Shown here one piece after another: positions 3,025-19,914 of a stretch of 32,224 bases of DNA (the stretch's first letter is position 1; each line of letters begins with the position of its first letter). The DNA lies in assembly GCA_013373595.1 (NCBI GenBank), contig JABXHO010000009.1:1-32224 (forward strand). Reading direction: 5' to 3'. Source of the stretch: Flavobacteriales bacterium (GTDB lineage: Bacteria > Bacteroidota > Bacteroidia > Flavobacteriales_D > Crocinitomicaceae). A program made the position numbers and the translations under genes. The notes under the pieces were generated by a model, which was not told the DNA's origin, ran no database searches, and saw only the letters and a list, made by a program, of their open reading frames with translations.

Positions 3025-5973
3025 ATGAGGTATTTCTTGTTTGTGACATTTCTTTTTATCCTTCATCTGAAGGCTGATGCGCAATGTGCGAACCCAACGG
3101 TGATGCTAGATGAACCGTTCAATTCTGATCCAATTACAGGTGCAGTTACAGCGAATATTTATGGAAGCGGCTTTTGGAACAATGCATCCTATACGCTTAG
3201 TGGACAGGGACATGGATGGTTCAATGTTGTGAATGGGGTGAGCAATGTGGATGTGTACGATCGTCAGGTGAACGGTTTCTGTATCGATTCCGCCGTTACG
3301 GTTACATTTTGGACACGTCACTCTTTTGGGAATACCAATGTGACATACAGTGTCATCGATGATGCGAACTCTGTTTTGGCTACAACTACATTGAATCTAA
3401 CAACGGTTTATCAGCAAGTCACATTCAACTTTACTGCAACAACACCAGGACTAAGATTTGTGATTCATTGCAATTCTACGGGAGGAAATGGTGTCGATAT
3501 TTGTGTTGAAGATTTATTAATCACGCACTGTGCAAACCCTCCATCTGAAGATCATGTATATGGCATTTGCTCACCGAGTGGAACCGTCGATTTATTCTCC
3601 TTTTTCTCGAATAATATTGATCCTGGAGGAACGTGGTCGGGACCTTCAGCGCTGTCAAATGGACACCTAGGAACCTTCGATCCTTCAACGAATACACAAG
3701 GCGTTTACCAGTATTCTGTACCGAGTAATTGTGGAGTAGGGGTGTCATCTGTAGAAATTGAAATAATGCCTGATGTCGACTTAGGAAACGACACAACGCT
3801 TTGCGCGGGAAGTTCGATTGTATTGGACGCAGGAGCAGGATTCGACGAGTATTTGTGGTCGAACATGGCAACTACACAAACAATTAACGTGGCGACGGCA
3901 GGAACGTATTCCGTTCAAGTGTCTTCTTCATTAGGGAATTTGATTTCAGATCCTGGCTTCGAAAGCAATTCACCGTTTTACACAGATTACGCGGTGGGTA
4001 CAGGTGGATCATGGGGACTCGTATCGAACCCCGGAACGTACGCTGTAGCAACATCACCAAATTTAGCACACAATAATTTCGCTTCATTTCCTGACCACAC
4101 AACTTCGGGACCTGGAAATATGTTGGTTGTGAATGGTTCTTCTGTTCCAGGGACAAACGTGTGGTGCCAAGATGTCTTGGTGACGCCCAATACAGACTAT
4201 ATGTTTTCTGCATGGGTCGCAACCCCTGTGAATCCATCCAATGTGGCAAATCTTCAATTTTATGTGGACGGCCTACCGATTGGATCTGTTTTCAATGCAC
4301 CGACGGTTATAGGGCAGTGGCAACAGTATTCGGACACATGGAATTCGGGCGGAAATACGAGCATTACCATTTGTATAGTCAATCAAAATACGACAGGTGG
4401 AGGAAATGATTTCTGTTTAGATGACTTGATGTTTGCCCCAGTTTGTACAAAATCAGATGATATTCAAATCAGTATCGAAACGCCTTCTCAAGTGGTATCT
4501 ACCGTAAATCCTACGTGTAACGGAGATGCGGATGGAGAAATCCATGTAGACAATAATTTAGCGGTTGAATATAGTTTTGATGGGGGAACTACTTGGCAGG
4601 CAGATTCATTTCTGCTGAATGTTTCGGCAGGATCATATTCTGCTTGTTCACGAACGGCCTTGGGGTGTGTCTTGTGCGAAACGGTCACTATTGTCGATCC
4701 AGCCCAAGTACTATTGACTGTTTCCAGTGATACGACTATCTGTGAAAATGGAACTGCTCAACTTTCAGCTTCAGCAACGGGTGGAACAACATGGGATTTT
4801 TATTGGTCGCACACCACCGATTTAAACGGAAATCAATCTGTTTCTCCTCTGGTGAACACAACTTACACGGTATATGCGCAAAATGAAAATGGATGTGAAT
4901 CCTTACCTCTCGATATCGATGTTTCCTTACATCCTCCGTTATCTGGTACCATTTCCATTTTTGACTCCATTTGCCCTGGATTCTCAAGTGATTTATCCGC
5001 AACAGCGAGTGGAGGAATTGGAGCACCATATACGTTTACATGGAGCACAGGTGATGTCTTTACGGGGAATGGAGTAGATCAAATAACTGTATCGCCAGGC
5101 GCGAGTTCCGATTACACGGTAACTATCTCGGATGGCTGCGAGTCAACACCAGTCGATTTATTGACCAATGTGTACGTGGCGCCCTTGCCCGTTCCGTCAG
5201 TTAATGTACTCAATCCAAATCAGTGCGAGCCTGCTCAGTTCCAAATTGTCAATACCACGCCGAATACCTTGTATAGTTATTGGTTGGTGGACGGAAATCA
5301 GCAGTTCGTGAATCAGAATACGATTGTTACGTGGGATATGTATGCAGGAAGCTACGATCTTCAACTGGTGATCACTTCTACGGATGGCTGTGTCGATTCT
5401 GCAACTTTTACGGATCTATTGGTAGTTGACCCATTGCCCGAAGCGAATTTCGGTTATTCGCCGAACCCAGTGTTGATGTTCAATACAGAAGTAAACTTCA
5501 CGAACCTTTCGTACAATGGATCGACCTACGAATGGTTTTTTGAAGAGGGAAATCCATCTTTTTCTACAGACGAAAATCCAACAGTGATGTTCCCTGACGG
5601 AGTGGATGGAGAATACGATGTTACGTTGATCACTACGTCCGACCTTGGATGCACGGATACAATCACAATTCCACTGGTAGTACTCCCCGAGGTACTCATG
5701 TACGCGCCAAATGCATTTACCCCCGATGGCGATGAACACAACCAGAACTGGCGCATTCATATCGTTGGAATCGATGTGTACGATTTTCAATTACAGCTGT
5801 ACGATCGTTGGGGTGAGCTCATTTGGGAAAGTCGCGATCCTGAAGAAGGATGGGACGGAACATTCAAAGGACAACCCTGTCAGGTGGGAACGTATACTTG
5901 GGTTGTACGCGCGAAAGATTTGCTCAACGACGGTCAGTATGTTTATAATGGACATGTGACTTTGTTGAGGTAG
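3025..5973 (+). CDS. Secreted multidomain adhesin-like protein with type-B T9SS sorting domain (CHU_C)
   Basis: A 982-residue protein. The signal peptide is MRYFLFVTFLFILHLKADAQ. Two jelly-roll or carbohydrate-binding-like modules follow (about 20-170 and 305-475; the second begins LISDPGFESNSPF). Between them is an Ig-like unit of the type DLGNDTTLCAGSSIVLDAG, common in Bacteroidota surface proteins. More Ig-like modules and a PKD-type domain (about 805-893) follow. The last about 88 residues form the gliding-motility C-terminal domain: YAPNAFTPDGDEHNQNW, LYDRWGELIWE and GTYTWVVRAKD. This domain directs secretion by the T9SS and attachment to the surface. Type-B cargos such as SprB depend on a PorP/SprF-like partner; none is adjacent here, the nearest being at 15242. 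The gene is monocistronic with its own promoter. Confidence 0.9.
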   Translation: MRYFLFVTFLFILHLKADAQCANPTVMLDEPFNSDPITGAVTANIYGSGFWNNASYTLSGQGHGWFNVVNGVSNVDVYDRQVNGFCIDSAVTVTFWTRHSFGNTNVTYSVIDDANSVLATTTLNLTTVYQQVTFNFTATTPGLRFVIHCNSTGGNGVDICVEDLLITHCANPPSEDHVYGICSPSGTVDLFSFFSNNIDPGGTWSGPSALSNGHLGTFDPSTNTQGVYQYSVPSNCGVGVSSVEIEIMPDVDLGNDTTLCAGSSIVLDAGAGFDEYLWSNMATTQTINVATAGTYSVQVSSSLGNLISDPGFESNSPFYTDYAVGTGGSWGLVSNPGTYAVATSPNLAHNNFASFPDHTTSGPGNMLVVNGSSVPGTNVWCQDVLVTPNTDYMFSAWVATPVNPSNVANLQFYVDGLPIGSVFNAPTVIGQWQQYSDTWNSGGNTSITICIVNQNTTGGGNDFCLDDLMFAPVCTKSDDIQISIETPSQVVSTVNPTCNGDADGEIHVDNNLAVEYSFDGGTTWQADSFLLNVSAGSYSACSRTALGCVLCETVTIVDPAQVLLTVSSDTTICENGTAQLSASATGGTTWDFYWSHTTDLNGNQSVSPLVNTTYTVYAQNENGCESLPLDIDVSLHPPLSGTISIFDSICPGFSSDLSATASGGIGAPYTFTWSTGDVFTGNGVDQITVSPGASSDYTVTISDGCESTPVDLLTNVYVAPLPVPSVNVLNPNQCEPAQFQIVNTTPNTLYSYWLVDGNQQFVNQNTIVTWDMYAGSYDLQLVITSTDGCVDSATFTDLLVVDPLPEANFGYSPNPVLMFNTEVNFTNLSYNGSTYEWFFEEGNPSFSTDENPTVMFPDGVDGEYDVTLITTSDLGCTDTITIPLVVLPEVLMYAPNAFTPDGDEHNQNWRIHIVGIDVYDFQLQLYDRWGELIWESRDPEEGWDGTFKGQPCQVGTYTWVVRAKDLLNDGQYVYNGHVTLLR

Positions 5974-6233: not shown

Positions 6234-9188
6234 CTATCTCGATACTACGATACGCTTGACACTTTTCGTTCCATCTTTGAAATGAACGGAAAGAATATAA
6301 ACGCCCGTTTTTGGATCATTTAAAGCTATATGAATATTGCCGGCATGATCACTCTGTTCAAAAGAAACGTACTCTCCAACCATGTTTGTCATGATGAGCT
6401 GTTCTACTTCCTGCCCATTCGATATTTTGATGTCGAAGCTACCCTGACTTGGGTTTGGGAAGAGTTCAACAAAGTCCATAGATTGGGGAGCGATATCTTC
6501 AATACTCGGTATATACGAATCAATATCGGCATTTTTCCAGCCTTCACTTGTTCCCGCGGTGTTACACCCATGAATAAAAGCCAATGCATATCTATCCACA
6601 GTGGAAGAGCCAGACGCAATAAATCCTGGCTCCCAAGTTACCGATTCCGTCCCACGAAAAATGGTTGGTTCACCTGACTGAATTGCATTACTGTTTGCTA
6701 CGACTTCTGATCCGAAGTAAAAGTCAGCTGGAATTGGTGATCCCAAAGTAACAGGGTTGGTAACCGTTGGGCACATCAATGGAGATTTCCAAATACCTCT
6801 TCCGTATAACCCGACACGTATGGTATTCTCCATATAATTGATCTCTAGTTGACGTGTAGTTAAGCGAGGTAAATCTTGGTCCAAATATTCGACCCATTGT
6901 GAGTCATCTTTCGTACGATAGTAGATTTTTCCAGTTTTTGTTCCGACATACAATCCGTCATTACTAGCATTATCCATTATCATCGTACTCATAACTTCAT
7001 TGGTAGGAATACCTTCACTATAGTTAGACCAATTCGTCCCATCGTATTTCATCACTTTAACAGCTTCATTACCCGAGCCTGGAAGTTCTACAAGTACGTA
7101 TACAACATTTCTGTCCCAGGGACTGGTCTCTATTAAGTGAAGCTTGACTTCAAAAATATTCGACGTTGGATCATATAGGTCTGTCTGCAAATCAGTGCAC
7201 GTAGAACAGTTATTCAATCCAGAAAGGTTATCCCAGACATTTAGAGTTAAATTCGCCCATTGTGGATCGCCACCAGAAGTAGTATGCTCGTAATGCCCTT
7301 CCCAACAATTATCAAGATTATCACCAATATACTTAATGACTAGGGGAGCATTCCCTTTACTACCTTGATTTCCTCTAGCTCCTTCTGTTGTGAAATACAT
7401 AGCATTTGCAGTTTGTTGAGAGAAAGACATAGCCATAATTGCCGACCAGTTACTAGTCCATTCACCAGTAGTAGGAGTTAACTTTCCTAAATCAACTTTA
7501 CGCACAAAGTAATATTTATCAGGATCGGTTTGATCATCAGATTTGGCCATTTGCATTACTCCCCAACGGTGCTTTGCATGAAAAATGCGACCTGGACGAA
7601 AAGGGTCCTGAAAATACAACCGTGGTGTAAAACCGAGCAGGTTAGTTCCTAGGTCATCACTATAATCCCCTTTAAAGGGAGAGGTGGTAAGTGGTCTAAG
7701 AAATTTACTAGAGTTGGTTAAGTCAGTTGCACCACCATCTTCGGAAATATGGTAATTCGGACTGCTTCCATATGATGAATGATCAAAGATGACAAAATCA
7801 TCATTGAATCGGTCAAACCACCCACCATCATTCTCCCAAGTACTTCGTGTGTATCGATTTCTTCCTTCAGTTGCATCAAAGAAGTCTGTGTAAGTGATAT
7901 CCTGACCTCCAATCACATAATAGTTTGGGTTTGTTGCAGCGCCTGAAAAACCATTAACTAAGTTCACATGCAAACCATTATTTATTGTCTCAAAGTTGAA
8001 TGAACCGGAAGAAGGAACTTCACATCTCCAAAGTCCTCCATCATTCGCAGCATAAAAATATTCAGTACCGCTTATCTCATAAATTTGATAATCGTGATGA
8101 TCTGGGTGCATGTATGCCATAGAGGGACCATTCGTACCATCATTATTTTTCGAGAACATAGATAGAGAGCCAAATACGACAGTAGGGTACCCTGGTAATG
8201 CGACCATAGCAGTTCTTACAGGATGATATGAGTCGAAACAAGAATAATTCAAGGTTGCAATGTTTGTGTAAATTGAATAGACTCCTGCATTTTCTTCAAT
8301 TCCATAAACGCTTAGGTCAGATGCATAACCACTAGCTGTGCTACACGTTACGTAATGACGTCTATACATTTTGAGGTACACTTGATTATCTGCGTGTCCC
8401 TTTGCTACAAATCCATGTTCAGCTGTATATGTATGGTTACCAGCTGGAATTGTAATAGCGACATTTGTATAATTGATTCCATCTGTAGAATTCTTAAAAA
8501 TCAATGTGGAATTTATGTCGCTAATTGAGAAATCTCTCTCTTGTGATGAACCCGCTATCGTATAAACAGCTGTAGTTGGAGTGTCTTTAACTATTATCAT
8601 GTTTTCTATCCAACCTGACTCTATTTTTGTCCAAGTAACTGAGGAAACATTTAATACTCCGCGATACAAACCACGCGTGGTACAGACATAGAATACATTC
8701 TGATTAAAAGGATCTACTTCAACGTCTGTAATAATAGCAGAAGTTCCTGCGGGGTGAGGGATTGCCGAAAATAAAGTCCATGAATCACTCGAAAAATTAT
8801 ACCGAGCAACTCTACCTGAAGTTCGCTTTTCATTGTAAAATGTACCAACGAGAATTTCATTGGTATTAATAAAAGCAATATCAGCAATACCTCCTGATAA
8901 GGCATCCGTTGAATTGATAGCAGTCCAATTATCTCCTCCATCGAATGATTCCCAAATACCTGCGAATTTTCCTCCAGTAAACATGTGTGTTTCAACGTTT
9001 GGATTTTGTCGAATCCAGTTAATTTGAGATGTGTGAAATAAATTCGGTTGTCCATTTACATCTTCCAAATTAGATGACATAGGGCCTACATGCTGCCAGT
9101 CCTGACTGAAAAGCGTGCAGGAAATCAACAACATCAGAAAGGTGACGAGCTGATTTGTGCTTAGCTTGTTATAGATCTTACTTCTCAT
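6234..9188 (-). CDS. Secreted BNR/sortilin-like beta-propeller protein with type-A T9SS sorting domain
   Basis: A 984-residue protein with a signal peptide ending at about residue 29 (LMLLISCTLFSQ). The body has repeated propeller motifs of the BNR/VPS10 type, such as GIWESFDGGDNWTAINS, GLYRGVLNVSSVTWTKIESG and GLYVGTKTGKIYYRTKDDSQ. Proteins with these repeats are often exported glycosidases or adhesins; I see no catalytic signature and call no enzyme. The C-terminus is a type-A T9SS sorting domain: LFPNPSQGSFDIKISNG, then TGVYILSVHFKDGTKSVKRI. Its ATG lies inside the end of the upstream tail-fibre-like gene (11-nt overlap), so the pair is translationally coupled. A strong terminator follows the stop codon. 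Confidence 0.88.
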   Translation of the reverse strand: MRSKIYNKLSTNQLVTFLMLLISCTLFSQDWQHVGPMSSNLEDVNGQPNLFHTSQINWIRQNPNVETHMFTGGKFAGIWESFDGGDNWTAINSTDALSGGIADIAFINTNEILVGTFYNEKRTSGRVARYNFSSDSWTLFSAIPHPAGTSAIITDVEVDPFNQNVFYVCTTRGLYRGVLNVSSVTWTKIESGWIENMIIVKDTPTTAVYTIAGSSQERDFSISDINSTLIFKNSTDGINYTNVAITIPAGNHTYTAEHGFVAKGHADNQVYLKMYRRHYVTCSTASGYASDLSVYGIEENAGVYSIYTNIATLNYSCFDSYHPVRTAMVALPGYPTVVFGSLSMFSKNNDGTNGPSMAYMHPDHHDYQIYEISGTEYFYAANDGGLWRCEVPSSGSFNFETINNGLHVNLVNGFSGAATNPNYYVIGGQDITYTDFFDATEGRNRYTRSTWENDGGWFDRFNDDFVIFDHSSYGSSPNYHISEDGGATDLTNSSKFLRPLTTSPFKGDYSDDLGTNLLGFTPRLYFQDPFRPGRIFHAKHRWGVMQMAKSDDQTDPDKYYFVRKVDLGKLTPTTGEWTSNWSAIMAMSFSQQTANAMYFTTEGARGNQGSKGNAPLVIKYIGDNLDNCWEGHYEHTTSGGDPQWANLTLNVWDNLSGLNNCSTCTDLQTDLYDPTSNIFEVKLHLIETSPWDRNVVYVLVELPGSGNEAVKVMKYDGTNWSNYSEGIPTNEVMSTMIMDNASNDGLYVGTKTGKIYYRTKDDSQWVEYLDQDLPRLTTRQLEINYMENTIRVGLYGRGIWKSPLMCPTVTNPVTLGSPIPADFYFGSEVVANSNAIQSGEPTIFRGTESVTWEPGFIASGSSTVDRYALAFIHGCNTAGTSEGWKNADIDSYIPSIEDIAPQSMDFVELFPNPSQGSFDIKISNGQEVEQLIMTNMVGEYVSFEQSDHAGNIHIALNDPKTGVYILSVHFKDGTKSVKRIVVSR

Positions 9189-10410
9189 CTTCTAGTTGTT
9201 TAATGCGTTCTTGAAGATTCTTGTTTTGTTCCGCCAATTCAATTGTGTAGAGAGTCAATTCTTCTATTTTCTCTAAAAGAGTAGCATCCATTTTTGATAG
9301 GTCGTAACCTTCATTATCAACCAATTCCTGTGCAGATGGTACTCCTGGAAGATGCTTATTTACTTCGACGAAGCGCTTCACTTCAGTAAGTGAGCGTAGC
9401 TCATAATCCGTTTCAAAAACATAATCGGCCCAATCGGTTGTGTTATACAATGCAACCTTCACCTTCTCCGTGAGAATTCCTTCCTGAACAAACAATTTAT
9501 AACCATTTGGAGTTGAAACTAAGGAAGGGTCTCCAATGAGTGTTTTGCCATTTACAGTTAATGGAGCCGTTGGGTTATCAGTATTGACTCCGACATTTCC
9601 TGAGAGGTTTTCTATAAAGAGACAATAATTTTTTAACCCTCCAGTTGCCCCGTAAGGTTTCCAAAAATTTAAGCCATCTGTATGTGCTTCGATACCCCAT
9701 TCACCATAGGCTGCACCACTTCCATTTCCAAATAAAAGAGATGAGCCAGCTCCGTTAATGAGTGTGAATCCATTGAGTTTGGTGTCAATATCCGAACCAT
9801 TAACATCGGCAACTTCAAAACTCGATGATGGTGTAGTAGTGGCAATTCCTACCTTTCCATAGGTTCCAACTCCACTTCCGGCTCCAACGAATAGAGTAGG
9901 TAAGTTACTATTAAAGCCGACCATTAAGGAATTGGAAATATTGTTCTCAAGAGGATAGGTTGTGTTGTAGCCTACTCCAATGGCGAATGCCTTGGTAACG
10001 GTTGCTTTAGCATCTGTTCCAATTGCCAAAGTATTTGATCCTGTAGCTTTAGTTCTGGTTCCAATCGACGTGGAGAAACTTGCTGTTGCATCCGAATTGT
10101 ATCCAAGTCCGATTGAATAACTTCCTGTAACATCTGTATCTCGGCCAAATCCGAACGAGTAGGTTCCTCCAACATTTGCATTGTATCCAAGCCCGACAGA
10201 ATAGCTTCCTGAAACGTCTGAATTATAGCCTCCGCCAAAACTGCGAACTCCTGTTACATCACAGTTTGTACCGTAATAACTACCGTAGGTTCCGGCGTTG
10301 TTTCCTCCACCATTATACATGGTAGCAGAGTTTGTTTGAGAAAATGCAGATGGTAAAATGCATAGACTAGATAACACAACAAGGGTGTTTTTTTTGAAAA
10401 TAGTTTTCAT
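9178..10410 (-). CDS. Secreted tail-fibre/YadA-head-like repeat protein with C-terminal coiled coil
   Basis: A 410-residue protein with signal peptide MKTIFKKNTLVVLSSLCILP...AFSQ. Residues about 30-150 are near-regular repeats of about 14 residues, such as SYSVGLGYNANVGGT and SYSIGLGYNSDATAS, resembling the left-handed beta-roll head of YadA-type trimeric adhesins. A central part follows, with NVGVNTDNPTAPLTVNGKTL as found in phage tail-fibre-like proteins. The C-terminus holds a conserved Bacteroidota module, VKRFVEVNKHLPGVPSAQEL and LLEKIEELTLYTIEL, ending in a coiled coil (about 380-410) that would support trimerisation. There is no S74 peptidase, no T9SS domain and no barrel, so how it is held at the surface is unclear. 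It overlaps the propeller gene by 11 nt and is the first gene of that operon. Confidence 0.8.
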   Translation of the reverse strand: MKTIFKKNTLVVLSSLCILPSAFSQTNSATMYNGGGNNAGTYGSYYGTNCDVTGVRSFGGGYNSDVSGSYSVGLGYNANVGGTYSFGFGRDTDVTGSYSIGLGYNSDATASFSTSIGTRTKATGSNTLAIGTDAKATVTKAFAIGVGYNTTYPLENNISNSLMVGFNSNLPTLFVGAGSGVGTYGKVGIATTTPSSSFEVADVNGSDIDTKLNGFTLINGAGSSLLFGNGSGAAYGEWGIEAHTDGLNFWKPYGATGGLKNYCLFIENLSGNVGVNTDNPTAPLTVNGKTLIGDPSLVSTPNGYKLFVQEGILTEKVKVALYNTTDWADYVFETDYELRSLTEVKRFVEVNKHLPGVPSAQELVDNEGYDLSKMDATLLEKIEELTLYTIELAEQNKNLQERIKQLEDEK

Positions 10411-10890: not shown

Positions 10891-12660
10891 TTAACTCTTT
10901 GGATAGATCTTCGCGATCGTATCGGCATGAATTTCCATGATCTTTTTACGTTTCAACTTAAGTGTTGGTGTCAATTCTCCACCTTCTACAGACATTTCTT
11001 GTGGAAGAAGCTCTACGCACTTCAATTGCTCCCACTTTCCAAATCCTTTATTGAAGAGATCAACTTCTTTGTTGAGACGTTCTCTTACTTTTTCAGAAGC
11101 AATAATCGCCTTGTTTGAGCCATCGCCCAAATCTACTTTTTTACGGCTTGCCCATTCTTTCACGAAATCAAAGCTTGGAACAATCAATGCTGATGGGAAT
11201 TTCTCTCCCTCACCAATTACAATAATTTGCTCGATGAAACGTGACTCTTTGAATTTGTTCTCCATCGCTTGAGGGACAACATATTTTCCACCAGATGTCT
11301 TAAAAATTTCTTTCTTTCTATCAGTGATTTTTAAGAATTTACCCTCTTGGAATTCACCGATGTCTCCTGTGTGGAACCAACCATCTTTGAGTACTTCTTC
11401 CGTTTTTTCTGGAAGTTTGTAGTAGCCCATCATTACGTTAGGACCTTTCACTAAAATTTCTCCATCTTCCGCAATTTTCACCTGTACACCGTCAATTAAC
11501 GGACCAACAGTTCCAACGCGAATTCCTTTTTGAAAGGAGTTTACCGAACAAACAGGGGAGGTTTCTGTCAATCCATATCCTTCCAAAATTGGAATGTCGG
11601 CTGCTAAGAAAATACGCGCCAAACGAGGTTGCAACGCGGCACTTCCAGATGCAATCGCACGTACATTTCCTCCTAAGGCTTCTTGCCATTTTGAGAAGAT
11701 TAATTTTCGAGCAATTTTCAATTTTACGTTATACATGAAGCTTCGACCCTCCACTTTGTAATCTTCCGCTAGCGCTACCGCCCAGAAGAATAATTTGCGT
11801 TTTATTCCAGATAATTCATCTCCTTTCGCCATGATTTTGTCGAACACCTTTTCGATCAAGCGTGGAACAGCTGTAAATACATCTGGTTTTACCTCACGAA
11901 TGTTGTCTCCAATTGTATCCAACGACTCCGCAAAATGGATTGAAGCACCGATGTACATGTACAAATAATGTAACATGCGCTCGTAGATGTGACAAACAGG
12001 TAAAAAGCTCAATACATCCGAGTTCTGATCTGCTGGAATAGGCTCGATACACGACTCAACATTCGAAAGAATATTTTTGTGCGAAAGCATTACGCCTTTC
12101 GGATTTCCAGTTGTTCCTGAAGTATAAATGATTGTTGCTAAATCTTCATGTTTCACCTGATCCATTCGCTGTTGAACCGTTTCTACAGGAATCGACTCGC
12201 TATCTTTTTTAATTTCAGACCAATGAACAGCTCCTGGCACATTATCTTCCATCGTGAAGATGTTTTGTAGAGTTGGGATTGAAGATCGAATATTATCGAT
12301 TTTGCCAAATAGTTCCTCATCTGCAACTACACACAATTTGATTCCTGCATCGTTAAAGATGAACTTGTAATCATTTTCAGAGATGTTCGGGTAAAATGGT
12401 ACGACAATGGCGCCCGTTTGCTGAATCGCAATATCCATTACATTCCATTCGTAGCGCGTTCCTGAAACCAATCCGATCATGTCGCCAGCTTCAACTCCCA
12501 AGGCAATCAAACCGCGAGAAATGGCCATTGCTTCATCGAGAAAATCCTTGGTCGAAACACCTATCCATTTACCATCGGTTTTTGTCACGAACATTTTTTC
12601 GTTCGGGTATGCTTTGAGTTGATGTTGTGGCACATCAAATAATCTTTTCGCTTCAATCAT
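10891..12660 (-). CDS. Long-chain fatty acid-CoA ligase (AMP-forming)
   Basis: A 589-residue member of the ANL adenylate-forming family. It activates a fatty acid with ATP to an acyl-adenylate and transfers it to coenzyme A, supplying beta-oxidation or lipid synthesis. The phosphate-binding motif IIYTSGTTGNPKGVMLSHKN lies at about residues 178-197. The A5-type motif GYGLTETSPV is near 358, GWFHTGDIGE near 430, and the hinge region with KEIFKTSGGKYV near 450. Length and motifs fit the Bacteroidota long-chain ligase group, with no signal peptide, so it is cytosolic or membrane-associated. It is transcribed alone, with a terminator just downstream. A weak promoter-like TAAATTCG lies 22 nt upstream. 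Chain-length preference cannot be read from the sequence. Confidence 0.92.
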   Translation of the reverse strand: MIEAKRLFDVPQHQLKAYPNEKMFVTKTDGKWIGVSTKDFLDEAMAISRGLIALGVEAGDMIGLVSGTRYEWNVMDIAIQQTGAIVVPFYPNISENDYKFIFNDAGIKLCVVADEELFGKIDNIRSSIPTLQNIFTMEDNVPGAVHWSEIKKDSESIPVETVQQRMDQVKHEDLATIIYTSGTTGNPKGVMLSHKNILSNVESCIEPIPADQNSDVLSFLPVCHIYERMLHYLYMYIGASIHFAESLDTIGDNIREVKPDVFTAVPRLIEKVFDKIMAKGDELSGIKRKLFFWAVALAEDYKVEGRSFMYNVKLKIARKLIFSKWQEALGGNVRAIASGSAALQPRLARIFLAADIPILEGYGLTETSPVCSVNSFQKGIRVGTVGPLIDGVQVKIAEDGEILVKGPNVMMGYYKLPEKTEEVLKDGWFHTGDIGEFQEGKFLKITDRKKEIFKTSGGKYVVPQAMENKFKESRFIEQIIVIGEGEKFPSALIVPSFDFVKEWASRKKVDLGDGSNKAIIASEKVRERLNKEVDLFNKGFGKWEQLKCVELLPQEMSVEGGELTPTLKLKRKKIMEIHADTIAKIYPKS

Positions 12661-12775: not shown

Positions 12776-12857
12776 TATTAAAAGGAGTGAAATAAAGTTA
12801 TGTTGGTGTAACATTATTAGGTCTTCAATTGTTTTAACTGCTGAGATCTGAACAGAT

Positions 12858-13349
12858 TTGAAAAGAAAAGAGTACAATATCGTTGTAAAAGAGCAAGCTG
12901 GAAATCTATACGGCTACGCAATTCGCTTCCTTAGAAATGAAGACGACGCAAAGGATATTGTGCAAGATGTCTTTGAAAAACTTTGGTTGAACAGGAGTAA
13001 AGTAGAATTCGCGAAAGCCAAGTCTTGGATGTTCACAACGGCCCACAATGCAATGATCAACTTTGCAACTCGAAAGGGGCGTGTGAAATTAACGGATGAA
13101 ATGGCAGAATTTGATTCTTCTGGTAAATCGCAAACGAGCTTGTTCGAATCACAACAAGTGGTGGACAGAGCGGTGAGCATTTTACCTCCGATTCAAAAAA
13201 GTGTGATTTTGTTGCGTGACCTTGAAGGGTATTCGTATAAAGAAATTGCAGATATTTTGAATCTTTCTGATTCACAAGTAAAAGTTTATCTATTCAGAGC
13301 TCGAAAGAAAATTAAAAAGCAGTTAAAAGGATTGTTTGAACTAGTATGA
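12858..13349 (+). CDS. ECF-type RNA polymerase sigma factor
   Basis: A 163-residue sigma-70 family protein with only regions 2 and 4. Region 2 is at about residues 10-80, with LYGYAIRFLRNEDDAKDIVQ then DVFEKLWLNR and the -10-reading helix KSWMFTTAHNAMINF. Region 4 is at about 105-160: ILPPIQKSVILLRDLEGYSY and KEIADILNLSDSQVKVYLFR, a helix-turn-helix that reads the -35/-33 element. The TTG at 12858 is the first possible start after an in-frame stop at 12849, and the next in-frame ATG would remove region 2. The stop overlaps the ATG of the anti-sigma-like gene by 4 nt (ATGA), typical of sigma/anti-sigma pairs. It presumably directs RNA polymerase to a regulon controlled by the downstream membrane protein. 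Confidence 0.9.
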   Translation: MKRKEYNIVVKEQAGNLYGYAIRFLRNEDDAKDIVQDVFEKLWLNRSKVEFAKAKSWMFTTAHNAMINFATRKGRVKLTDEMAEFDSSGKSQTSLFESQQVVDRAVSILPPIQKSVILLRDLEGYSYKEIADILNLSDSQVKVYLFRARKKIKKQLKGLFELV

Positions 13350-15238
13350 GTAAGCCTTCATTTTCAAATATCGACCTATGGTTGTTCGAGCTTGCCGAGG
13401 GAAATCTTTCGCCTCAGCAAATTGAGCAATTGGAGCTTTTCTTGCTCAACCATCCTGAGTTGGATGTGGAACGCGATGTTTGGGAAATGGCCAAAGTCGA
13501 CAAGCAGGAAATAGTATATCCACACACAGCAGATTTACAAAAGAAACGTCGTCCAGTTGGCGCAATTGTCCTTTTTGGAGCGTTGGCGGTGTTACTGAGC
13601 ACAGGTCTGTACGTAACATTAGATACGGATACCAAAGCGTTTACAGCGGAAGATAGTTCGCAGCAAGATGCTCAAGTAAAGGCGGAGGTAATGAATCAGT
13701 TGCACGCGCTTCAGGAAAACTCTGGTGATCACGAGCTATATAAAGCATTAATGAATCAGTTTGCGTTGACGTATGCAGACAAAAATCAATCTTCTTCTTC
13801 GAACGAAATGTTGTACTCTCAGTTGATGCCAACTGCAGTTCAACCAAATGGATACAGTTCATTTACAAACTATTTATCAAATAGCACTCAATCTCGTATC
13901 AACCGATCAGCTAATAACGCATCGAATGGTGTAAGCCAAGGTCGAGGGAACTTGGAAGCAGGACTGGATAACGCGCAAGTGTACAATGGTCAGCAAACGA
14001 ATGATGTCGCGCTGCAGACTTCTGTTGCTTCCACGATGGTGGAATCAGGAGTTTCTAATGAAAATGGAACAGAAAGTGTGACGAATCCAATGGATTTGAG
14101 TTATGCTGATGGAGTGAACGAGGAGAGAGGAAATAACGAACAGACAGAAGTGGGCTTGGATCCAATTGCACGTCCATCTGATTTGAAAGATTTTGAGAAC
14201 CGTGCATGGAGAGATCGAAAAACGATTTCATTCAACAATGCCGTAGCTTCATCTAGAGAAAGTAATATATCATTTAAAGAACGTTTCAAGAAGTTCTCAA
14301 GATCGTTGGAACGAATGATGAACTCACCAATTGCCCTGAAGAATTCACGTGATCCGCATTACCATGTTCCTGGAATGACAGCAAATGACATCAATTTTAG
14401 TTCTGCCGGCACATTAATTTCAACACGCGTTCAAACATTGTCGAGGTTGCAGTGGCCGAATAAAGCGAACGAGCAGCTTCGAAATCAAGTTTCAATCGAT
14501 GGTTATGCGTATGGTATTCGCGGAGGTTGGGGAATGCAATTGAACCACAATTATTATAAAGATGGTGGAATTCAGTCGGAGCAAGCGGCATTCACGTACT
14601 CTCCGAAAATATCTGTTTCGAATTGGTTCTCCATTGAGCCTTCAGTTCGAGTGAAAATTGGTCATAAACAGTTGAAATATGAGCAAATGGGTGATGATCA
14701 AGCTGTAGAGATAGATCGAGGAAATGCCTACGATTTCTACGCGAATGGTGCATCTCCAATTGGGCGCAACTTGTGGTACAAAGATCTTGGATTAGGCGTG
14801 TTGGTAAACACAAAATGGTTCTTCGCGGGAGTTCAGGCTGATAACCTTTTCAAGCACAAGGATAATATCTACGATGCAAACTGGAATGATCCGCATAGAG
14901 CAAGCAATCACCTAGTAGCAACTATCGGAACGGATTGGGTTTCTCGAAATAAGAAAACGAGTTTCTCACCTTACTTGGTTTACCAAAATAACGATGAACT
15001 TTCTGAGATGTGGGCAGGAGCGAACTTCTCCTACAACTGGTTCAATATTGGTGTAGCAGCATCAAACAACATGGAGCCAGCGGCATCCATCGGAATGACA
15101 TTTGACAATTTTAGTTTGCATTACAATGCAGATTACTCACAGAGCACGATGCTTGGAGAAAAGGCGCTTTCGCATCAATTGACCATTCGATTCTTAGCGA
15201 AGCAAAACAATTATAGCAATCAATTATTTAAACGATAA
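13346..15238 (+). CDS. Predicted dual-membrane anti-sigma factor fused to a PorP/SprF-like beta-barrel
   Basis: A 630-residue protein. Residues 1-60 are a short acidic helical domain (LWLFELAEGNLSPQQIEQLE, FLLNHPELD) of the kind encoded beside ECF sigma genes in Bacteroidota; it has no zinc-binding HxxxCxxC. A basic KKRR precedes one membrane helix at 71-90 (VGAIVLFGALAVLLSTGLYV). Residues 95-340 form a Gln/Asn/Ser-rich, probably extended linker with a basic helical patch at 308-325. Residues about 345-618 look like a PorP/SprF barrel and match the next gene in order: RLQWPN/RNQWPS, GGWGMQ/GGFGVL, DLGLGVLVNTKWFFAGVQ/DATAGTVLFNKVFNIGFT, and closing strands of alternating polarity. N-in topology would place the sigma-binding domain in the cytoplasm and the barrel in the outer membrane. 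Start: ATG overlapping the sigma stop. Binding to the sigma factor is inferred from gene order. Confidence 0.75.
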   Translation: MSKPSFSNIDLWLFELAEGNLSPQQIEQLELFLLNHPELDVERDVWEMAKVDKQEIVYPHTADLQKKRRPVGAIVLFGALAVLLSTGLYVTLDTDTKAFTAEDSSQQDAQVKAEVMNQLHALQENSGDHELYKALMNQFALTYADKNQSSSSNEMLYSQLMPTAVQPNGYSSFTNYLSNSTQSRINRSANNASNGVSQGRGNLEAGLDNAQVYNGQQTNDVALQTSVASTMVESGVSNENGTESVTNPMDLSYADGVNEERGNNEQTEVGLDPIARPSDLKDFENRAWRDRKTISFNNAVASSRESNISFKERFKKFSRSLERMMNSPIALKNSRDPHYHVPGMTANDINFSSAGTLISTRVQTLSRLQWPNKANEQLRNQVSIDGYAYGIRGGWGMQLNHNYYKDGGIQSEQAAFTYSPKISVSNWFSIEPSVRVKIGHKQLKYEQMGDDQAVEIDRGNAYDFYANGASPIGRNLWYKDLGLGVLVNTKWFFAGVQADNLFKHKDNIYDANWNDPHRASNHLVATIGTDWVSRNKKTSFSPYLVYQNNDELSEMWAGANFSYNWFNIGVAASNNMEPAASIGMTFDNFSLHYNADYSQSTMLGEKALSHQLTIRFLAKQNNYSNQLFKR

Positions 15239-15241
15239 AGC

Positions 15242-16198
15242 ATGAAGTATTTTTTGAGTTTAGTGGTAATTGGATTTATGGGAACGGGCGCATTTGCACA
15301 GGACCTTGAGTTTACTCAGTTCTATTCAAACCCAATCTATCTAAATCCAGCCCTTGCCGGTTCTGACGGCTGTCCAAGGTTCGCTATGAATTATCGGAAT
15401 CAATGGCCATCATTGTCTGGTTCCTATGTTTCATATGCGGCAGCATACGATCAGTACTTTAAGAACATTAATGGGGGATTTGGCGTATTGGCAGTGCATG
15501 ATGTGCAAGCACAAACAATTAGTTCGTCGCAGCTCGGAGTTATGTACTCGTATCACTTGAAGTTGAATCGAAAATGGTCCATGAACTTTGGTGCGAAGGC
15601 AAATTACTGGGTAAAAACACTGGATTGGGATAAGCTTACTTTCGGAGATATGATTGATCCGCGTCGTGGTTTTATTTACGCAACAGGTGATGTACCACGT
15701 GGAGGAACTAAAGGATTTTTCGATGCGACTGCAGGAACCGTTTTGTTTAACAAAGTATTCAATATTGGATTTACTGCTCACCATCTGAATCGTCCAAACG
15801 AATCGATGATTATTGGAGATTCGCGCTTACCGATGCGATTCACAGCGCATACTTCAGCGTATATTGCATTGGGACAGAAATCACAGTACAGCAATCAAAC
15901 GGCGATTATGCCTTCGGTAATTTACTCGTATCAAAATGGATTCCAGCAATTGAACATTGGTACCTACGTGAAGTACGGTGCGTTTACGGCAGGAGCGTGG
16001 TTCAGAAATCGAGATGCCTTCATCTTAACAATGGGAATCAGAACAGAGAAATTCAAAATTGGATATAGCTACGATGTAACGGTTTCGAAATTGAATAATG
16101 GTGTGTCAGGAGGTTCGCATGAAATCTCGTTAGGATTGAACTTGAACTGTAAAGATAAGCCACCTTCTTTCCGAACTATTTCTTGTCCATCGTTCTAA
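15242..16198 (+). CDS. PorP/SprF family type IX secretion outer-membrane protein
   Basis: A 318-residue protein with signal peptide MKYFLSLVVIGFMGTGAFAQ. The canonical PorP/SprF opening QFYSNPIYLNPALAGS (about 26-41) is present, followed by RNQWP, GGFGVL and MYSYHLKLNRKWSMNFGAKA, then a run of amphipathic beta strands to the C-terminus. Family members are outer-membrane beta-barrels. PorP is needed for T9SS function in Porphyromonas, and SprF for secretion and attachment of the type-B cargo SprB in Flavobacterium. It begins 3 nt after the anti-sigma fusion and ends the operon, with a terminator 57 nt later. Its barrel is a paralogue of the domain fused to the anti-sigma factor. The genome may contain other copies, so this need not be the core PorP. 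Confidence 0.9.
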   Translation: MKYFLSLVVIGFMGTGAFAQDLEFTQFYSNPIYLNPALAGSDGCPRFAMNYRNQWPSLSGSYVSYAAAYDQYFKNINGGFGVLAVHDVQAQTISSSQLGVMYSYHLKLNRKWSMNFGAKANYWVKTLDWDKLTFGDMIDPRRGFIYATGDVPRGGTKGFFDATAGTVLFNKVFNIGFTAHHLNRPNESMIIGDSRLPMRFTAHTSAYIALGQKSQYSNQTAIMPSVIYSYQNGFQQLNIGTYVKYGAFTAGAWFRNRDAFILTMGIRTEKFKIGYSYDVTVSKLNNGVSGGSHEISLGLNLNCKDKPPSFRTISCPSF

Positions 16199-18213: not shown

Positions 18214-19914
18214 TTATTTATTCCATTCGGCAATGGTTTCGTAGAGTACTTTGATTTCTTCGCTTAGCGAGAATTTGAAGTCTGCAAGAGTTCTGTTATC
18301 CCAACTTTGTGTGACTTTCTGAGCGTATATTTTTTTTGTTAATCCACTTTTACTTTGGAGTCTAAAATCTTCAATTGTTTTGTCATCTAAATAGTTTTCG
18401 AGAGTTCGGATTTCGGTATTGTCTTTTTTGTACCAAAGTCCAAGGTTATAATTGTTTTTGGAAAGTTTTTCAAATTCGTTTGCAACGAACTCCTTGGCTT
18501 TTTTAAAATTTGATTGATCTACTATGGTTCCATCATCTTTGCGAATGGCATCGCTATCAGTAATTAAATAAGCGTTTCTGCTGAAGCTAAACATGCTCAC
18601 GAGTTTCTTCAGTTCATCTTCTTCAGAATGGTCATTTTTCATCAAACATAGACTGTCGAGAAGGGTTCCACCGTACATTTGGAATTCATAGTGGGTTCCT
18701 TGGATTAGTTTTGGTAATTCGTTTTCGGCGATGTACATATCGAGCCATTTTTTTATGTAGACAACGTCACTTGGACCTTCAACCCAAATAATTCCATTTG
18801 CCTGAAGTATGTCTGAGCCCTTTGCTCCAAGATTGTCTAAAATTGAATGAGGATATTTTACTATTTGTCTAACATGGCTTACTATAGATTTTCGTTGGAT
18901 ACGTGCTCGTTTTTTATCGTGACTTATTAAAAATGTAGTGTCATTTAAGGATCTGTCAAATTCGTAAATTGAACACAATTCCGGATATTTAAGGAACTCG
19001 TCAATTAGAACTGTTGAATGCGAGCTTAGGAATATTTGTCTTGCTTTTGATTTTTTCGTTCCTTCTATTTTCCATTCATTAATTTCTTTCCAGGAACTTT
19101 TTTTGAACCAATCGACCCATTTTTTCTCAATTTTGTCAAAAAGTTCAGATGATTTTCCAATTAGAGGGATTTTTCCTCTATTCGAAATCCAAATCATTAT
19201 TTCAAAAACTCTTCTAAGAATCCTGGGCTCTAGATGTACTTCGGGTTCGTCAATACAGACAGCGCCACCGCGCGTTTGAAAGTAATCCATAAGAAGGTTT
19301 GAAACCGAAAAGAAACCAGAGGACCAATCTTCAAAATTACCAACTGGTATTCCATCTGTTCCTCTATCGGCATTGTCTTGAATTGTAAACCATTCTGTAA
19401 TACTTCCCTCTCTAAACGAAAAATCTAGTTGAAATATATACGTTACACAAAAGCTTAATATGGCTGGCAGAGAGTTACTCCTTCCAATATTATTTAGCTT
19501 ATCCTTAAAAGAAAGAATTGAAGGATCATGAGAAATATACCCCGCACTGTAATGCTTAAAGTTTCCCTTAACATGAAGTCGATTTCGAAATGTAATGTTA
19601 TGATACTCAAGTTCAATAACAATGTCGTTATTAGAATTTGGTTGAGAGGACTGTGAATCACGCGGTTCACGAACGATTAAATCAGGTAAAACGTTTCGAC
19701 TAATGGATTTATTACCGAGTTGATAGCAGAAGGTGTTAGTCGGACGATCATATATTGAAATGACGTCGAGATCACACATAGCTCGAAATACATTACTCTT
19801 TCCGCTTCCATTTTTTCCAATAAACAGATTGAATTGCTTGAAGTCTTTTAATTCGCTGGTGCCTAATGGACCAAAGCTGTAAACATTTCTAAGATCGATG
19901 CTTTTAAACCACAT
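18214..19914 (-). CDS. OLD-family ATPase with TOPRIM nuclease domain
   Basis: A 566-residue protein with an SMC/ABC-type ATPase half. The P-loop GKNGSGKSN is at 33-41, a signature-like WSSGFFSVSNLL at 197-208, Walker B CIDEPEVHLEP at 220-230, and an H-loop His in FLSSHST at about 299. The second half is a TOPRIM domain: IIWVEGPSDVVYIKKWL (catalytic Glu379), ITDSDA (Asp453 and Asp455) and EIRTLENYL (501-509). OLD proteins couple ATP hydrolysis to DNA nicking or cleavage, and several act against phages (P2 Old, and GajA in Gabija). No UvrD/GajB helicase gene is adjacent, so this looks like a solitary class-1-type OLD. It is flanked by repeat-rich junk and by inverted copies of a 22-bp palindrome, suggesting an acquired gene. 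A defence role is inferred. Confidence 0.85.
   Translation of the reverse strand: MWFKSIDLRNVYSFGPLGTSELKDFKQFNLFIGKNGSGKSNVFRAMCDLDVISIYDRPTNTFCYQLGNKSISRNVLPDLIVREPRDSQSSQPNSNNDIVIELEYHNITFRNRLHVKGNFKHYSAGYISHDPSILSFKDKLNNIGRSNSLPAILSFCVTYIFQLDFSFREGSITEWFTIQDNADRGTDGIPVGNFEDWSSGFFSVSNLLMDYFQTRGGAVCIDEPEVHLEPRILRRVFEIMIWISNRGKIPLIGKSSELFDKIEKKWVDWFKKSSWKEINEWKIEGTKKSKARQIFLSSHSTVLIDEFLKYPELCSIYEFDRSLNDTTFLISHDKKRARIQRKSIVSHVRQIVKYPHSILDNLGAKGSDILQANGIIWVEGPSDVVYIKKWLDMYIAENELPKLIQGTHYEFQMYGGTLLDSLCLMKNDHSEEDELKKLVSMFSFSRNAYLITDSDAIRKDDGTIVDQSNFKKAKEFVANEFEKLSKNNYNLGLWYKKDNTEIRTLENYLDDKTIEDFRLQSKSGLTKKIYAQKVTQSWDNRTLADFKFSLSEEIKVLYETIAEWNK

Follow-up and report, generated by a model that had tools for sequence, protein, structure and literature searches.

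The window analysed here, a stretch of 32,224 nucleotides (nt) of contig JABXHO010000009.1 from a Flavobacteriales bacterium of the Crocinitomicaceae, carries a three-gene operon whose middle gene encodes a protein with the layout of the dual-membrane-spanning anti-sigma factors (Dma), ending in a barrel of the PorP/SprF type, the family of a component of the type IX secretion system (T9SS). We set this protein beside the Dma proteins on the basis of layout. The genes lie head to tail on the plus strand: an extracytoplasmic function (ECF) sigma factor gene (12858-13349), the fused open reading frame (ORF) of 630 residues (13346-15238) and a PorP gene (15242-16198). A gap of 3 nt separates the second gene from the third. 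In the fused protein, a predicted cytoplasmic anti-sigma domain (residues 1-70; 13346-13555) is followed by an inner-membrane helix (71-91; 13556-13618), a predicted periplasmic tether (92-325; 13619-14320) and the barrel (326-630 with the stop codon; 14321-15238). We consider it probable that this is an anti-sigma factor spanning both membranes, whose outer-membrane barrel senses a PorP partner and frees the sigma factor for its own operon and a regulon. In some aquatic bacteria, a single long protein is thus predicted to run from cytoplasm to outer membrane, and could pass the condition of the surface or of secretion directly on to gene expression.

A conserved-pattern scan of one genome per species over 84,980 species returned 124 stretches, every one a relative; the best 80 of the 124 are the named loci discussed below, so the true total is at least this number. 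The nearest named relatives of the window's genome in that scan belong to Crocinitomicaceae and Fluviicola, and carriers include the cultured Brumimicrobium aurantiacum, B. oceani, B. salinarum, Lishizhenia tianjinensis and Crocinitomix catalasitica. Among 296 genomes sampled across the phylum, the full-length fused protein had no match beyond the source genome. The sequence-only reading of this DNA had described a 4-nt overlap between the sigma and fused genes, with which the ORF coordinates agree; the overlap is 4 nt in 73 of the 80 named loci and 1 nt in six, and the remaining contig is too short. A PorP-like ORF comes next in all 65 named loci with at least 190 nt remaining, in L184 on the strength of a fragment match. 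In nine operon loci read in other families of the order, the sigma and fused genes always adjoin (9/9) and PorP follows in seven; it would lie off the contig in L123 and is absent in L117, which also has the weakest barrel. The fused ORF is intact in 76 of the 80 named loci, three others stopping at contig ends and one (L184) being split, and a fusion artefact was rejected, a single ORF of more than 540 residues being present in 28 of 30 loci of one set (source included). In one genome, represented by L030 and L184, the fused gene is broken into several open frames and its sigma and PorP neighbours remain. Median identity between orthologues, over the 42 loci with all parts, is 64.0% for the sigma factor, 54.4% for the N-terminus, 9.4% for the tether, 42.4% for the barrel and 67.6% for the adjacent PorP. 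Since both ends are kept and the tether is not conserved, the tether would be a spacer joining two working ends.

The assignment of the barrel rests on several comparisons. The isolated C-terminus (residues 318-630) passed the PF11751 cut-off of 22.3 with 65.8 bits (6e-18). The full-length protein scored 66.8 bits against TIGR03519, under the curated cut-off of 90.55, and we therefore name the barrel PorP/SprF-like. Scanned at full length against Pfam, the protein had no listed match, yet PF11751 reached 65.6 bits in the genome search, and we take the empty scan as a filter effect. At E 0.001, each of the two models is matched by 66 of the 77 fused proteins in our alignment (A3); among four distant orthologues scanned, TIGR03519 matches three, two of them over the cut-off (104.6 and 112 bits). 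A profile-profile comparison with the neighbouring PorP family gave a probability of 99.8 (E 6.8e-28, 293 of 313 columns, 20% identity), and the structure model contains fourteen strands within residues 361-617 and a short hairpin at 453-463, as counted by hand. Among fold matches of the barrel, FadL ties with PorV. Searched by sequence against solved structures, A3 gave four matches, which were chance-like and lay outside the barrel, and P0002 gave none. The earlier claim of a C-terminal barrel related to the neighbouring PorP/SprF protein, and thus a paralogue of a T9SS component, is borne out by these sequence comparisons; of the checks proposed for it, structure prediction returned a barrel and the profile search a PorP/SprF match, and neither refuted it.

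The fused barrels probably share a single origin, because 25 of them form one clade in a quick-method tree of 62 rows (SH-aLRT 100). The NPA motif, which lies near the start of the barrel, is present at its aligned place in none of the 77 fused barrels, against NPAxxG in all 43 complete adjacent PorPs; NFG or NFS stands there in 44 of the 77, and NPA persists in L116 and L120, fused orthologues that are distant. The fused barrel also evolves faster than PorP.

The remaining parts of the predicted architecture, namely an acidic helical N-terminus, one inner-membrane helix at 71-90 and a linker of about 250 residues, held up with small changes in the numbers. Residues 1-60 carry a net charge of -8, and the model contains three helices (9-18, 23-35 and 37-49). 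Anti-sigma factors make up 11 of 19 Foldseek matches and seven of eight VIA-align rows for this fold, each match being weak, and residues 1-70 are accordingly a predicted anti-sigma domain, as judged from the model; an EGNL motif occurs in all 77 aligned proteins. The structure model places the membrane helix at 71-91, and hydropathy peaks at 74-92. A hydrophobic 19-mer is found in 76 of the 77 rows, and in 73 of these 76 the flank before the helix is more positive than the flank after it, from which the N-terminus is predicted to lie inside. About 235 residues separate the helix from the barrel, with model confidence (pLDDT) below 50 at residues 140-302, taken as disordered, and the tether (the equivalent of residues 96-325) measures 137-256 residues across the 77 rows. 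Such a length appears sufficient to cross the periplasm. Among 198 genomes of the phylum, 38 (source included) matched a profile of the N-terminal domain; the matches outside the source's fused gene all scored below 45 bits, in open frames of 148-509 residues. The only other locus in the source genome to match this profile (contig C83, L115:3420-4933) holds a second sigma gene followed by a 344-residue protein with a membrane helix, two tandem EGNL/EGQL-type anti-sigma repeats and no barrel.

The sigma protein matched TIGR02937 (93 bits) and the Sigma70_r2 and r4_2 domains, and its assignment to NF058625 (GFO_1088/PG0214) is borderline, with 131.1 bits, or 130.2 in the genome search, against a cut-off of 130. 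In nine NF058625 sigma loci read outside the order, an ORF of 223-264 residues lies directly behind the sigma gene in five, with a membrane helix near residues 60-109 in four of these and at 186-204 in one; the other four have no ORF of more than 200 residues directly behind. None of the nine matched the N-terminal, barrel or PorP profiles built here. The sigma gene of the window starts with TTG (12858-12860); across the 80 sequences (the window and 79 loci), the first start codon encountered is TTG in 76. Perhaps this conserved weak start keeps the sigma factor scarce.

The third gene of the operon gave an unexpected result in its own right. Its product matched TIGR03519 with 219.1 bits and is one of 20 PorP_SprF matches in the source genome, the fused barrel included. 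That genome also has 46 matches to the type B C-terminal domain (CTD), 42 of them over the cut-off, and 12 of its 20 PorPs follow a type B CTD gene at a distance below 100 bp; the operon PorP is not among these. Its closest relative in the genome, at 73.7% identity, is instead the PorP encoded between porU and gldJ, hereafter the core PorP (L314:3525-4493). The order porU-PorP-gldJ is found in all 17 other genomes whose fetched stretch covered the place (three of the 20 stretches did not); in F. johnsoniae this place is occupied by porV. A careful tree built from 18 core and 12 operon PorPs shows the two kinds interleaved by genome, with seven changes, at least six of which are forced by starred branches, and no bootstrap tree has a single split; the pair from G038 joins long branches and is unsure. 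In G055, the DNA of the core and operon copies is 90.1% identical, whereas identity to the nearest orthologues is 62.6% and 62.9%. The corresponding values are 83.2% against 76.6% and 76.3% in G004, and 77.2% against 76.6% and 76.3% in G015, where the difference is marginal; such a within-genome excess is not seen in the other nine of the 12 genomes. The mature parts of the two G055 copies are nearly identical and their signal-peptide ends are not: the first 40 codons of the alignment are 42-44% identical, and from codon 61 onward identity is 88-100%, depending on the interval. Recurrent gene conversion between core and operon PorP is a possible explanation that fits these sequences well, repeated duplication being the alternative. 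Under either, the operon PorP looks exchangeable with the core T9SS PorP.

An exact match to an ECF-type promoter, TGTAAC-N16-TTGTTTTAACTG, lies at 12807-12840 on the plus strand, before the sigma gene, and the sigma factor of the same operon is predicted to act on it; every other site in the window has three or more mismatches. Of the 80 sequences, 75 carry TGTAAC and TTGT, spaced by 15-18, ahead of the sigma gene, usually in the form TGTAAC[AT]TT...TTGTTTTAaCTG; the motif is missing in L133, L138, L164, L175 and L179. The best dyad was found in 71 of 79 sequences, compared with at most 11 in any of five shuffled sets. Across 12 genomes, TGTAAC-N16-TTGTTTTA with up to one mismatch gave 88 sites against 69 for the control, which is near background; in the same genomes the operon promoters were exact in 12 of 12, and there were nine further exact sites. 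A stricter pattern, chosen after seeing the hits at the lipoprotein loci described below and controlled by its reversed form, gave 50 matches against 14 in 14 operon-bearing genomes (21 against 0 for exact matches), and 3 against 5 in four genomes without the operon.

Envelope genes lie downstream of the exact and similar sites. A small lipoprotein behind the motif is present in 37 of 60 relatives, and in 24 of the 30 lipoprotein loci scored the motif stands 136-182 nt before the gene, with a score that reaches or exceeds the 99th percentile of shuffled sequences. Operon and motif occur together in 23 of these 30, the operon alone in two (G016 and G006), the motif alone in one (G003, whose genome is 79% complete) and neither in four (Fisher p 0.0026, uncorrected for relatedness); a quick and partly weak lipoprotein tree suggests that the last four fall in two places. 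A lipoprotein cluster with two motif copies is found in four genomes (the source, G022, G012 and G028). In the source, contig C164 (L298:452-1221, 3252-3686) holds three related small lipoproteins behind the two copies, the second with a weak match to Big_1 and TIGR04134. PorP genes are among the targets in G012, G028 and G027, and T9SS cargo is represented by a type A CTD protein in G028 and, in G429, by one of type B (35.9 bits, cut-off 35). Further targets in the source genome are a 225-residue protein that matched no family and a small protein taken by eye for a lipoprotein. Two other sites were dropped for want of a gene close behind, C20:6672 and C91:19509, the latter spanned by a 551-residue frame on the opposite strand; a PorP-like protein at L265, so judged by eye, matched no family and was not counted. 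The source's next most similar sigma gene has TGTAACTTTT upstream but no TTGTTTTA, and the second promoter half may thus give specificity. In L283 and L286 (G014 and G023, genomes that lack the operon), TGTAAC is retained in the lipoprotein promoter and GCGTAC stands where the TTGTTTTA half would be, as if another sigma factor had taken the promoter over.

With these data in mind, one may outline how the system could work. The N-terminus would hold the sigma factor at the inner membrane, with the barrel sitting in the outer membrane. As the PorP fold is kept and NPA is lost in the clade, we propose that the barrel is a sensor for a PorP partner rather than a working PorP, reporting on type B CTD cargo, the SprA/Sov translocon or the supply of PorP. 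In FadL-type barrels, ligand binding is coupled to an N-terminal hatch; the equivalent piece is here joined to the tether, which offers a route by which changed occupancy or insertion might travel. The sigma factor would then be released, perhaps after cleavage of the tether, and would transcribe its own operon, raising the amount of sensor and supplying the core T9SS PorP from a second copy. It would also transcribe the lipoprotein cluster and genes for a few envelope proteins, PorP paralogues among them. According to the accessible part of PMC9143113, PorP-like barrels bind type B CTD proteins, which makes cargo, translocon or PorP supply natural signals. As for the earlier interpretation, which is supported in part, the architecture stands on profiles, predicted structure, topology bias and conservation, and we infer that the protein reports outer-membrane or T9SS status, a reading strengthened by the second core PorP copy in the operon and by the predicted regulon. 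Weighing against this regulon, the core PorP of the source genome lacks the motif, and so do 16 of its 17 other PorPs, the exception at C91:1759 being above the shuffle threshold (2.9). A more specific version, which we offer tentatively, is that the barrel is a decoy that competes with real PorP for cargo CTDs or the SprA translocon; a PorP shortage or T9SS block would then free the sigma factor to supply the spare core PorP, other PorPs and envelope lipoproteins, with gene conversion keeping the spare interchangeable.

The main rival signal is outer-membrane assembly: the barrel would only probe the BAM machinery or lipoprotein and outer-membrane homeostasis, its non-insertion would free the sigma factor, and its PorP ancestry would be incidental. 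Lipoproteins are the most constant predicted targets and, as noted, the fused barrel has lost NPA and outpaces PorP in its evolution, all of which fits this rival, as does the effect of Dma1 and Dma2 on vesiculation reported in the accessible part of PMC13088901. We nevertheless judge it rather unlikely, given that the gene strictly conserved beside the fused one codes for a copy of the core T9SS PorP and that PorP and cargo genes are among the targets. The chain might also be cut after synthesis; the barrel would then work as a PorP-like protein of its own, with ordinary regulated proteolysis controlling the anti-sigma part. Many anti-sigma factors are controlled by proteolysis, and a long, unconserved tether could be cut anywhere; however, family scans of the fused proteins found no FecR-type or other known self-cleaving domain, and a single ORF is kept where separate genes would be expected to arise, which makes this course improbable. 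Least probable of all is a FadL-like sensor of a small hydrophobic ligand, with the divergent acyl-CoA synthetase gene (10891-12660, minus strand) as part of the response. The tie between FadL and PorV, the binding of fatty acids by FadL-fold channels and the conservation of this AMP-binding neighbour at 58% identity or more in 53 of the 79 named loci speak for such a sensor, but the neighbour is absent or different in the other 26 (two with too little upstream sequence), PorP is always kept, and the sequence says PorP, not FadL.

An Rfam scan of the window gave no match. About 7 kb upstream of the operon, 3025-5973 encodes a likely T9SS cargo of 982 residues with an SprB repeat and a type B CTD. 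A 410-residue protein with YadA-head-like repeats (9178-10410) overlaps the end of a type A CTD gene (6234-9188), and 18214-19914 encodes an ATPase-like protein of 566 residues with a faint match to the retron Eco8 effector (23.3 bits, cut-off 250), possibly an OLD-type nuclease as judged by eye.

A PorP/SprF-type anti-sigma fusion was not found in the open-access literature, most subscription papers and all preprints lying outside that scope, nor is it described in the accessible parts of PMC9723704, PMC9143113, PMC7712824 and PMC12045153. To the PorP/SprF family, the protein is linked by a profile match over the whole barrel, a 14-strand FadL-type fold and a last strand of the conserved SHxxxxR/SHE type in alignments. 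It differs from that family in that the barrel stands behind an anti-sigma domain and tether without a signal peptide of its own, NPA is lost in all A3 rows, and the window's member falls under the TIGR03519 cut-off. In FecR/FecI-type signalling, an outer-membrane barrel, an inner-membrane anti-sigma factor and an ECF sigma factor act in a row; here, barrel and anti-sigma factor are one chain, and family scans found neither a FecR domain nor a TonB-dependent receptor in the sigma, fused or PorP protein.

In Porphyromonas gingivalis, PorXY-SigP controls the T9SS, and the link from the surface to the inner membrane is unknown (PMC7712824, in its accessible part). Both there and here, an ECF sigma factor is tied to the T9SS and a surface signal must reach the cytoplasm, but PorXY-SigP involves a two-component system, whereas here the connection is predicted to run through one chain. 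The closest parallel in layout is provided by the Dma proteins of Bacteroides, for which the accessible part of PMC13088901 describes an N-terminal sigma-binding domain, one membrane helix, a long disordered tether and a C-terminal beta-barrel. The fused protein has each of these, the anti-sigma domain as a predicted fold, and, as with the Dma proteins, its cognate ECF sigma gene adjoins; dma2 likewise lies in a three-gene operon. According to the same part of that source, however, the third gene with dma2 is of unknown function, whereas the present operon continues with a PorP gene and its fused barrel belongs to the PorP/SprF family; and the Dma sigma factors belong to ECF21, whereas the present one is assigned, narrowly, to NF058625 only. 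The fused family is thus a single-chain candidate for signalling from the surface or T9SS to transcription, present in named cultured strains and with a predicted promoter usable as a reporter. If our reading is true, the Dma layout extends from Bacteroides vesiculation to a T9SS-type barrel.
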